In this document: piece after piece, positions 22,933 to 24,612 of the stretch | Layout: each line of letters starts with the position of its first letter | How positions within the stretch are numbered: the first letter of the stretch is position 1 | From: Oceanospirillaceae bacterium | GTDB taxonomy: Bacteria; Pseudomonadota; Gammaproteobacteria; Pseudomonadales; Balneatricaceae | DNA length: 64,000 bases | NCBI GenBank assembly: GCA_013215505.1 | Contig: JABSQZ010000008.1 | Span: 1 to 64,000, forward strand | Reading direction: 5' to 3' | The notes under the pieces: generated by a model | Seen by the model: the letters and a program-made list of their open reading frames with translations, nothing else | Told to the model about the DNA's origin: nothing | Database searches by the model: none | Translations under genes and position numbers: made by a program

Positions 22933-23826
22933 TTGAGCGATAATCAGAACCTAAAAGCGGCCGCTATCATGATGTTCTCAATGGCAATGTTCACCACCGG
23001 CGATGCCATTATTAAATTTCTCAGTGACGACTTACCTATAGGCCAAATATTGTTCCTGCGCGGCGTTATGGTCTGCCTGCTATTTGTCATTTTATTAAAA
23101 AAGCAGCGACAGCAACTACTGCCAAAAGAGGGCTGGAACCGCTGGAACATACTGCGCGCCATGTTTGAGTTAATGATCGCCGCCAGTTACTTAGTGGGCC
23201 TGATCCTACTGCCCTTAGCCACTGCTGTGATACTGGTTTTCTGTGGCCCTATTATGCTAACTATCCTCGCCGCCACCGTGCTCAAAGAACAAGTTGGCTG
23301 GCGCCGTTGGAGTGCCGTACTGCTAGGCTTTGTCGGGGTAATTTTGGTGGCGGACTTAGAGCAGGCCTCGCTCACTTCCTGGGCAGTACTACTACCACTA
23401 CTGGCGGCTTTTCTAACCGCCTTGCGGGACATATTTGTGCGCAATATCCCCAATGTCCTCAGCTCGACCCAAATCGCCTTTACCACCGCCTGGATCGTCA
23501 CTATAGGTGGGCTATTAACTGTTCCCTTTGGCTGGAATACCGTCTCTAGCGAACACGCTGGGTTACTGGCTCTGGGCAGCGTCTTTATCATGGCCGCCTA
23601 TCTCAGTTATGTGGTCACCACCAGGATTGGCGAACTGTCGTTTGTCGCCCCGTTTAAATACACTTCAATCCCACTGGCGATGCTGATCGGCTATCTGATT
23701 TGGGGGGATGTACCTAGTGCTAGCTCTTACTTGGGAACGGCGATTATAATTGGCTCGGGGATGTTTATATTTGCCCGCGGCAAGAAGAGACAGGCTAATA
23801 AAGCAGTCGTGAGGCGTGAGGCGTGA
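22933..23826 (+). CDS. EamA/DMT-superfamily transporter
   Basis: 297 residues from a TTG start preceded by GGGGA. Ten hydrophobic segments form the two EamA repeats, with the N-terminal MMFSMAMFTTGDAIIKFLSD typical of the RhaT/YdcZ-like drug/metabolite transporters; TALRDIFVRNI marks the loop in the second half. It sits in the inner membrane and probably exports a metabolite; the substrate is unknown. The last codons and the stop lie inside a 7-base tandem repeat. Confidence 0.8.
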   Translation: MSDNQNLKAAAIMMFSMAMFTTGDAIIKFLSDDLPIGQILFLRGVMVCLLFVILLKKQRQQLLPKEGWNRWNILRAMFELMIAASYLVGLILLPLATAVILVFCGPIMLTILAATVLKEQVGWRRWSAVLLGFVGVILVADLEQASLTSWAVLLPLLAAFLTALRDIFVRNIPNVLSSTQIAFTTAWIVTIGGLLTVPFGWNTVSSEHAGLLALGSVFIMAAYLSYVVTTRIGELSFVAPFKYTSIPLAMLIGYLIWGDVPSASSYLGTAIIIGSGMFIFARGKKRQANKAVVRREA

Positions 23827-23862
23827 GGCGTGAGGCGTGAGGCGTGAGGCGTGAGGCGTGAG
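23809..23862 (+). repeat. Heptanucleotide tandem repeat (GTGAGGC, 7 copies plus a partial)
   Basis: Seven exact units of GTGAGGC (23809-23857) plus GTGAG. The array begins in the last six codons of the EamA transporter gene and contains its stop codon (TGA, 23824-23826). Because the unit is not a multiple of three and contains TGA, all frames close within three units, so copy changes would hardly affect the protein. Confidence 0.97.
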
Positions 23863-23925: not shown

Positions 23926-24134
23926 GTTTCGCCTGCGGCGAGTTCATTTCTTTTAAATGGGCCAAAAGAAACGGAACCAAAGAAAACTCCACCCTATATC
24001 GCCGAAAGACTCCTCCGCTCTGAGCTAAATGATTGGCCGCTCATCAGCGCCATCCATGGCGCATTCGCTCTTCGCATCATCCTGATGCTACGCTTCAATC
24101 ATTTACCTCAGAGCTCCGGCGGCACTATCAAGGG
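23926..24134 (+). repeat. Structured intergenic repeat, copy A
   Basis: About 209 bases with a regular fold. A short hairpin TCGCC-TGC-GGCGA is followed by TTTCTTTT/AAAAGAAA, the unpaired block GCCGAAAGACTCCTCC (24001-24016), and a long stem GCTCTGAG/CTCAGAGC plus AAATGATTG/CAATCATTT that carries two tip hairpins (GCGCCAT-CC-ATGGCGC, GCATCA-TCC-TGATGC). It ends in GCTCCGGCGGCA and CAAGGG. A second copy in opposite orientation lies at 24272-24470; there the same helices have different sequence but still pair. No open frame of note. Confidence 0.85.
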
Positions 24135-24271
24135 AACTGGGCAGCTCTGTATTTAGCTTCTGTATTTGTGTTCTGTTCCCATTTATTGTTCTAGTGATCG
24201 TCATATTCTCTGATATACACTAATAAATAAACTCCTAAAGCTGCGTTTTAACTACGGAGTTACTTCCCCCC
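24135..24271. other. Spacer between the two structured repeats
   Basis: 137 AT-rich bases with no gene or recognised motif. At the junction with copy B is a run of nine C (24266-24274). Confidence 0.6.
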
Positions 24272-24470
24272 CCCTTGGATTGCCGCCGGAGCTATTTGTT
24301 AAATTGACGAAGCGGAGCGACAGGATGTCGCGCAGAGTGAGTGGGACAGGGATGTCCCTATGAGCGGCCGGCAATTTAGCAAATAGCGGAGGAGTCTTTC
24401 GGCAATCTTGGGCGAGCTTTTTTGGTTACTCTTTTGCACGAGCAAAAAAGTAACTCGTTGAAAACGAAAC
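24272..24470 (-). repeat. Structured intergenic repeat, copy B (inverted)
   Basis: About 199 bases, the same element as copy A read on the minus strand. The blocks GCCGAAAGACTCCTCCGCT, GGCCGCTCAT and AGCTCCGGCGGCA are identical in both. Helices are conserved as pairs, not as sequence: TCGTT-TTC-AACGA replaces TCGCC-TGC-GGCGA, GCTATTTG/CAAATAGC replaces GCTCTGAG/CTCAGAGC, and the tips become GGGACA/TGTCCC and GCGACA/TGTCGC. The second hairpin (GTTACTTTTTTGC opposite GCAAAAGAGTAAC) is longer than in copy A. Confidence 0.85.
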
Positions 24471-24612
24471 ATCCCTTCAAGACCAATTAAATTTCAGCAC
24501 ATCAATATGTTAAATCAACCGCCTCTAAAGACGAATCTTAAAAGAAAAATCAGTCAAAAAAGAGAATTACCATCTTAATGGTATGATATCCAAAGAACAT
24601 ATCTGCAGGCAC

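Follow-up and report, generated by a model that had tools for sequence, protein, structure and literature searches.

The window analyzed here, a stretch of DNA of 64,000 nucleotides, carries two facing copies of a structured repeat, and the question raised by this locus is what kind of molecule the structure serves, and on which strand. The original prediction had described two convergent copies with stems that pair in each of them; reading of the sequence bears out both the positions and the stems. The explanation that we favor, with moderate confidence, is a dispersed, TwoAYGGAY-like repeat that encodes an RNA on the complement of the originally described strand, spread as a transposon and probably acting as a decoy for CsrA. 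Under this model, the two copies would be members of a dispersed RNA-encoding repeat that is read from the complement strand, and the RNA would consist of a TwoAYGGAY-like core followed by a pseudoknotted 3' domain, closed by a short terminal hairpin. Comparison of copies shows the family as such, the covariation, the strand asymmetry, the GGA loops, the pseudoknot and the wide occurrence of the 3' domain. The further steps are conditional: the RNA would be made in this organism, pairs of GGA hairpins would bind a CsrA dimer, and the many copies may act as CsrA decoys, or else the element may use CsrA for its own persistence. The parts of the two copies are listed below (window coordinates; strand of the putative RNA; R1 is a covariance model of the repeat and RF01731 the Rfam model of TwoAYGGAY).

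23990..24134, minus strand: RNA core of copy A, RNA 5' end at 24134, with basal stem, GGA/GGA internal loop, long stem and two GGA-loop hairpins; 166.9 bits with R1, scored on the strand of the original prediction
24130-24004, minus strand: RF01731 match of copy A, full length, 41.2 bits
24074..24088, minus strand: tip 2 of copy A, hairpin GCAUC-AGGAU-GAUGC, loop at 24083-24079
24047..24062, minus strand: tip 1 of copy A, hairpin GCGCC-AUGGAU-GGCGC, loop at 24057-24052
23926..23989, minus strand: 3' domain of copy A, with pseudoknot strand, T-rich/A-rich hairpin and terminal TCGCC/GGCGA hairpin; this is the AACCAAAGAAA region of the original prediction
24135..24271, no strand: spacer between copies A and B, from which the RNAs of both copies diverge
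24272..24414, plus strand: RNA core of copy B, RNA 5' end at 24272; 168.3 bits with R1
24275-24400, plus strand: RF01731 match of copy B, full length, 36.5 bits
24317..24331, plus strand: tip 2 of copy B, hairpin GCGAC-AGGAU-GUCGC
24343..24358, plus strand: tip 1 of copy B, hairpin GGGAC-AGGGAU-GUCCC
24410..24467, plus strand: 3' domain of copy B, with GGGCGAGC, a hairpin at 24425-24454 (GTTAC..GTAAC) and a terminal hairpin at 24455-24467 (TCGTT/AACGA), assigned by eye
24468..24554, plus strand: A/T-rich 3' tail of copy B, ending ..CTTAAAAGAAAAATCAGT

The RNA of copy A would run from 24134 down to 23926, and that of copy B from 24272 up to 24470. The predicted folds have energies of -67.6 kcal/mol for copy A (z = -4.46 compared to shuffled sequence) and -69.2 kcal/mol for copy B (z = -6.45). 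The GCCGAAAGACTCCTCCGCT block occurs exactly twice in the 64-kb window, compared to 0.02 occurrences expected when up to three mismatches are allowed. Within the spacer, the sequence that flanks copy B upstream (AACTCCTAAAGCTGC..ACTACGGAGTTAC) is also seen next to other copies; a scan of 24135..24271 for sigma-70-like promoters found none. A second repeat, GCGGTAGCTCC..GGAGCTACCGC or GTAACTCC..GGAGTTAC, often accompanied by AGTGCGTTTACGCTTTCTCTATTC, lies directly upstream (in the RNA sense) of several copies in the window genome (loci L091, L096, L097 and the window spacer at 24228-24268); it sometimes occurs as a tandem of about 65 bp.

The two copies belong to a large family. A BLAST search of the own genome with copy A gave 38 matches, and R1, which was built from 21 copies of this genome and then searched against the same genome, gave 32 matches at E <= 1 and 28 at E <= 1e-10. 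When 57 genomes of relatives were searched at E <= 0.01, with stricter filters that lose weak matches, the window genome and all six other genomes of the genus were positive (4-32 matches in each of the six), none of the 29 genomes from other genera of the family was, and one of the 21 genomes from other families of the order (G055) had a marginal match (E = 0.0096), at a site that coincides with a TwoAYGGAY match above the cut-off (45.4 bits). The originally proposed search with a covariance model thus finds further copies, in the genome as well as in the genus. The alignment used below comprises 86 copies, i.e., the matches at E <= 1e-10 in 58 stretches from six genomes, which is a subset of the genus copies with genome G006 absent. 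No exact match to the GCCGAAAGACTCCTCCGCT block was found in viral contigs. The strong copies may be clustered: contig C12 (272 kb), less than 5% of the genome, carries 10 of the 28.

The changes in the stems are truly compensatory. Using a structure of 41 pairs in the 86 copies, we found 89.6% of cells paired, compared to 77.4% after shuffling, and changes on both sides in 28 pairs and 388 cells, compared to shuffled means of 20.6 and 109.6; none of the 500 shuffles reached the observed fraction of paired cells or the observed counts of both-side pairs and cells. When the partners were slid by 1-3 columns, the both-side cells dropped to 16-75. One measure is contrary: the number of further standard pair types was 57, fewer than the 63.1 in shuffles, which in our reading exceed it by creating wobble types absent from the real copies. 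Together with the many copies in genome and genus, the covariation sustains one of the possibilities originally raised, that of a structured non-coding RNA family.

From the synteny table we chose 12 pairs of copies that share their flanks between sister species; the flanks are the sole basis of orthology. In these, 51 base pairs changed on both sides and were kept, and 21 changed by one wobble; 37 were broken on one side, and nine changed on both sides and are unpaired. Thus, 46 of the 118 changed pairs are unpaired in at least one copy, which counts against the favored explanation, and the more divergent of the 12 pairs may reflect replacement by another copy.

The type of mismatch that is tolerated points to the strand. 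Counted on the originally described strand in 39 pairs of the 86 copies, there were 2939 Watson-Crick cells, 200 A·C, 9 G·T and 152 others, where the count omits two loop-closing pairs with 43 G·T cells and G·T is 52 if these are included. Shuffling of the 3' letters gave means of 281 A·C and 129 G·T, with a minimum of 112 G·T in 500 shuffles; the depletion is about fourteen-fold for G·T and less than a third for A·C. Since A·C on this strand is G·U on its complement, the mismatches that are tolerated correspond to G·U wobbles in an RNA transcribed from the complement strand. Therefore, the strand was probably misassigned originally, and the molecule under selection is probably an RNA transcribed from the opposite one. 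In agreement with this test, 15 of 15 TwoAYGGAY matches in the own genome are on the complement strand. Fold energy was discarded as a test of strand: the complement folds better in 85 of the 86 copies; however, single-letter shuffles show nearly the same difference (-12.0 vs. -13.2 kcal/mol), so it is an effect of composition. Counting A·C against G·U in paired columns is a simple test for the coding strand of a structured repeat, and it also helps to tell selection on RNA from selection on DNA.

The structure could also belong to DNA. An element that acts through hairpins or cruciforms in single- or double-stranded DNA, either REP/BIME-like or a transposon recognized as a folded single strand, would be dispersed and palindromic, as the repeat is; the copies avoid genes (none of the 86 overlaps a gene predicted by a simple hexamer-scored ORF caller), and the DNA strand folds well, too (z = -5.31). 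However, such an element should treat G-T and A-C more alike, whereas the ratio is 200 A-C to 9 G-T compared to 281 to 129 after shuffling, and the fixed GGA loops and the pseudoknot described below are RNA-like. We consider a DNA-level element improbable; the chromosome-architecture element that was initially among the candidates loses its footing with the same asymmetry, which points to RNA.

The covariation could, in principle, also arise without any selection on structure. Template-switch or gene-conversion repair in quasi-palindromes is a known process in principle; it copies one arm from the other and yields compensatory changes for free, and the scarcity of one-side intermediates on the strand as first written would fit it. 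The Watson-Crick pairs that it produces are alike on both strands, however, so that tolerance of G-U on one strand is unpredicted, and it predicts neither conserved loops nor a loop that covaries with a strand not adjacent to it. Arm-to-arm repair as the whole explanation is, in our estimate, very improbable.

Returning to the RNA read from the complement strand, its core has a regular layout, i.e., a basal stem, a symmetric GGA/GGA internal loop, a long stem and two GGA-loop hairpins. The internal loop is exactly GGA/GGA in 55 of the 86 copies. GGA is present in tip 1 of 81 copies, in tip 2 of 81 copies, and in both tips of 78 copies. Among copies without an insert in tip 1, its loop is AUGGAU in 35 and AGGGAU in 16, with relatives including AUGGAC; the loop of tip 2 is AGGAU in 43 and AGGAC in 32 (together 75 of the 86) and AUGGAU in four. 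The first two GGA loops are mostly 26-36 nt apart (mostly 27, 29 or 34). At least two GGA-loop hairpins were found in 78 of the 86 genus copies, compared to 54 of 430 single-letter shuffles, and at least three in 43 copies. Some copies have inserted modules, and those inspected form GGA hairpins, too. An insert of about 50 bases is found in tip 1 of L008, L016, L018 and L029, with a GGA hairpin (RNA sense) in most of the four; that of L018 carries AGGAGGTAGAATAATG, which in the RNA sense resembles a ribosome-binding site and a start codon.

The best Rfam hit for both window copies is RF01731, matched at full length on the complement strand with E-values of 5.6e-5 for copy A and 6.5e-4 for copy B (1001 bases searched). 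These scores are under the curated cut-off of 43 bits, by 2-7 bits, and a scan of the window with Rfam gave no match at gathering level. In the own genome, a filtered search, in which copy B is absent from the matches, gave 15 RF01731 matches at E <= 0.01, one of them above the cut-off (46.1 bits). In the class, 24 of 369 genomes had matches at E <= 0.001, 15 of them above the cut-off, and often in multiple copies; these are lower bounds, as at most seven candidates per genome were scored, and two matches were found here in this way, compared to 15 in the own-genome search. The repeat resembles TwoAYGGAY in having two GGA-loop hairpins on one long stem, in its gamma-proteobacterial occurrence and in being often multi-copy. 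It differs in that tip 2 is usually an AGGAY pentaloop, whereas TwoAYGGAY has AYGGAY, in the extra 3' domain with pseudoknot and terminal hairpin, which lies outside of the 168-position Rfam model, and in its occurrence as tens of dispersed copies. Since the window copies score below the RF01731 cut-off, we place the repeat outside of the filed family, as a divergent relative that has an additional domain.

Weinberg et al. (2010) discovered TwoAYGGAY and list it as a probable RNA of the human gut, gamma-proteobacteria and Clostridiales (PMC2864571). A study of motifs predicts that it binds CsrA (PMC4333381), and the passages of PMC11701678 and PMC7657543 that name TwoAYGGAY mention it for added base pairs only. 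The original statement that no function has been described is right in part, as a CsrA-binding prediction for the closest family is in print. For the orphan TwoAYGGAY RNA, the analysis adds further architecture, a signature of strand-specific evolution and, for one lineage at least, a way to spread. The CsrA-binding prediction, now about ten years old, can be tested directly in Methylobacter, Lysobacter and similar hosts.

The extra domain consists, in order, of GGGNNNNNN, a T-rich stretch, a hairpin GTTACTTTCTTT-loop-AAAGAAAGTAAC and the short terminal hairpin. The bases that follow GGG are complementary to the hairpin loop, in different sequence versions (GCGAAA/TTTCGC, GTGCCC/GGGCAC, GGTGAG/CTCATC, CGTGC/GCACG and others), i.e., they form a pseudoknot. 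We compared the complementarity of each copy to its own loop with that to swapped loops, both in the genus and in 80 stretches from distant genomes. It was 12.38 compared to 9.59 +- 0.28 in the genus (76 of 86 copies parsed) and 12.53 compared to 9.88 +- 0.27 in the far loci (75 of 80 parsed). A strong helix (score >= 13) is present in 39 of 76 genus copies and 35 of 75 far loci, compared to 13.9 and 14.4% after swapping. A narrow-loop version of the test is weaker but has the same direction (3.75 vs. 2.83 in 68 copies; 3.92 vs. 3.18 in 76 far loci). These comparisons show the pseudoknot as a property of the family that is absent from some copies. In the window, the 3' domain of copy A was assigned from its sequence and from the like domain in far relatives. 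Its pseudoknot pairing is short (GGG/CCC by eye, covariation being tested over the family), and that of copy B is weak (CGAGC vs. GCACG by eye, with one mismatch; the narrow-loop test scored CG/CG only).

The 3' domain is found far beyond the genus, in beta- and gamma-proteobacteria: a scan of named genomes for the hairpin pattern gave at least 115 stretches. The 80 stretches that were analyzed come from Lysobacter, Pseudomonas, Methylobacter, Methylophilus, Comamonadaceae, Thiobacillus, Rhodanobacter, Dyella, Kangiella, Psychromonas and others, including metagenome bins named Ruminiclostridium (two stretches) and Aphodosoma (one); they are not independent, with several per genome in Methylobacter marinus (M. 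marinus), M. methylotrophus and others. The scan supports the remark, in the original prediction, on similar dispersed repeats with the AACCAAAGAAA block in other proteobacteria, this block being the 3' domain read backwards. The strict repeat pattern is present in 15 of 369 genomes of the class, which is a lower bound. No Rfam model was found that covers the 3' domain. For a census of GGA hairpins, we used those 68 of the 80 far stretches that extend far enough upstream: two or more GGA-loop hairpins are present in 37, one in nine and none in 22, compared to two or more in 60 of 680 single-letter shuffles. A different apical module, TGTTTGAGC..GAGTT, is present in 11 of the 68, and none of the 11 has two GGA hairpins. 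These loci, L176, L208, L209, L210 and seven others, are mostly from beta-proteobacteria, and the apical region of L176, L209 and L210 matches no Rfam family at gathering level. When 18 far loci were scanned with Rfam, the only matches at gathering level in the region were two to TwoAYGGAY. Conversely, among 19 far RF01731 loci, a like 3' domain is present in 12 and absent in seven, as judged by eye.

The GGA hairpins bring in CsrA, and capture of this protein is, on the sequence evidence, the best-supported candidate function. The own genome has one CsrA gene. In this genome, the CsrB model has no match at E <= 1, and the RsmZ model has a single sub-threshold match of 19 bits, located away from the repeat copies. 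The upstream activating box of the GacA type is TGTAAG-N6-CTTACA; a search of 86 upstream stretches of up to 160 nt, with spacers of 5-7, found no good match, one match with one mismatch and two with two. Thus, the repeat is like CsrB, RsmY and RsmZ in its multiple GGA motifs in hairpin loops, in a genome with a CsrA gene. It is unlike the sRNAs that sequester CsrA/RsmA, which are encoded by one to few genes, in being present as tens of dispersed copies, without a good GacA-type box upstream and without a CsrB or RsmZ match. It should be noted that CsrA binding cannot account for every branch of the family, since 22 of the 68 far loci have no GGA hairpin and 11 have the other module. If the decoy reading holds, transposable elements seed genes for regulator-titrating RNAs across genomes.

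The RNA could instead be a device in cis, i.e., a leader or 3' UTR element that controls the attached gene. In the simple ORF prediction, 43 of 85 copies share their strand with the upstream gene (RNA sense), which would allow read-through for some; this is the chance expectation, as the other 42 upstream genes are on the opposite strand. Of the 84 copies with a gene on the downstream side, 59 have it on the opposite strand; therefore, the element is usually not the leader of the next gene. RF01731 is entered as Cis-reg in the copy of Rfam used, against the table of its discoverers, where TwoAYGGAY is not cis-regulatory (PMC2864571). We hold control of an attached gene to be unlikely.

How a repeat encoding such an RNA may spread is best seen in Methylobacter marinus A45, where the RNA is the body of at least seven elements of 314-338 bp (typically about 317 bp) with 13-bp inverted repeats, ACTGATGTTACGC. 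The corresponding 14-mer, with at most one mismatch, occurs 43 times forward and 43 times reverse in this genome, compared to one and zero for the reversed control. We delineated 18 non-overlapping elements, less than half of the about 43 suggested by these counts; a nineteenth was left out because of an overlap (L297). Of the 18, 13 have exact target duplications of 5-6 bp. The RNA is present in eight of the 18, and six of the eight have a target duplication. In this species, the repeat has thus moved as a small element that is bounded by inverted repeats and flanked by target duplications. The original prediction had considered a mobile element that moves through a folded single strand: mobility stands, at least in M. 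marinus, whereas inverted repeats and target duplications are those of ordinary DNA transposition, and these ends also argue against the DNA-level element discussed above.

One RNA-bearing element (L293) is 1903 bp long and has a nested insertion, an insertion sequence at 918-2511 of the locus with a DDE transposase (PF13701), the ends of which form a 20-bp inverted match. We discarded this transposase as the autonomous mobilizer: it has its own inverted ends inside the repeat and looks like a passenger. Elements with the same inverted repeats, a different interior and no RNA (L297, L301, L304 and others) are also present in M. marinus, so the inverted-repeat family and the RNA are separable.

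In the genus of the window, the comparison with miniature inverted-repeat transposable elements (MITEs) such as those of M. marinus gives one end only. A recurring RNA-3' end, ..AAATCAGT, follows 56 of the 86 copies with at most one mismatch, compared to about 20 by chance, whereas its partner repeat was not found: a ACTGATTT-like word is upstream of 15 of the 86, no more than background. Mobility in this genus is therefore proposed by analogy. The copies have a long history here. Several stand beside the same genes in sister species and are therefore old. At the orthologous site of the window in the congener G003, with flanks 85 and 89% identical, both cores are missing and a tail like that of copy B remains; we rejected it as a clean empty site, since the retained tail fits a lost or decayed copy better. 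Elsewhere, a degenerate copy in the window genome (L103, 33.2 bits) faces an intact copy in G003 (L113, 141.7 bits). Thus, the copies are old in part, and they are being lost as well as kept.

Such turnover, with copy numbers that vary and copies that decay (L103 vs. L113; the G003 site), would also be expected of a selfish transposable element, the RNA of which serves its own spread or maintenance, e.g., by stabilizing or regulating transposition, without benefit to the host. The inverted repeats and target duplications in M. marinus are consistent with this, as is an apical module that varies between lineages while the 3' domain is constant. However, compensatory change in same-flank copies suggests selection after insertion, unless copies were replaced; no mobilizing enzyme was identified, as the L293 transposase looks like a separate nested insertion. 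We consider a purely selfish RNA rather unlikely. The favored explanation of a transposon-spread CsrA decoy can be extended, as a tentative proposal that we find doubtful in this breadth, to a widespread class of beta/gamma-proteobacterial mobile elements, the body of which would be a large regulatory RNA, with a conserved, pseudoknotted 3' domain and an exchangeable apical module, a CsrA-titrating GGA pair being the version in gamma-proteobacteria. If true, DNA transposition spreads the elements and genomes gain tens of dispersed genes for CsrA decoys; the element would be kept, or would keep itself, by titrating a global post-transcriptional regulator.

The open-access literature on dispersed structured or CsrA-binding repeats contained nothing recognizable as this repeat. 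The nearest is BRE of Bordetella, a dispersed, mostly intergenic beta-proteobacterial repeat that overlaps a transcribed sRNA, bprJ (PMC3110155); compared by its description only, it differs in being about 90 bp long with 69% G+C. The TAACTGA repeats of Beggiatoaceae (PMC4679880), as described there, are a different thing and were set aside. Finally, an array of the seven-base repeat GAGGCGT is located in the window at about 23808-23862; the G003 genome has it, too, at the orthologous site and in other places. Other seven-base arrays (ACTTCCG, CTCGCTA, AACTCCC) are close to several copies of the element elsewhere.
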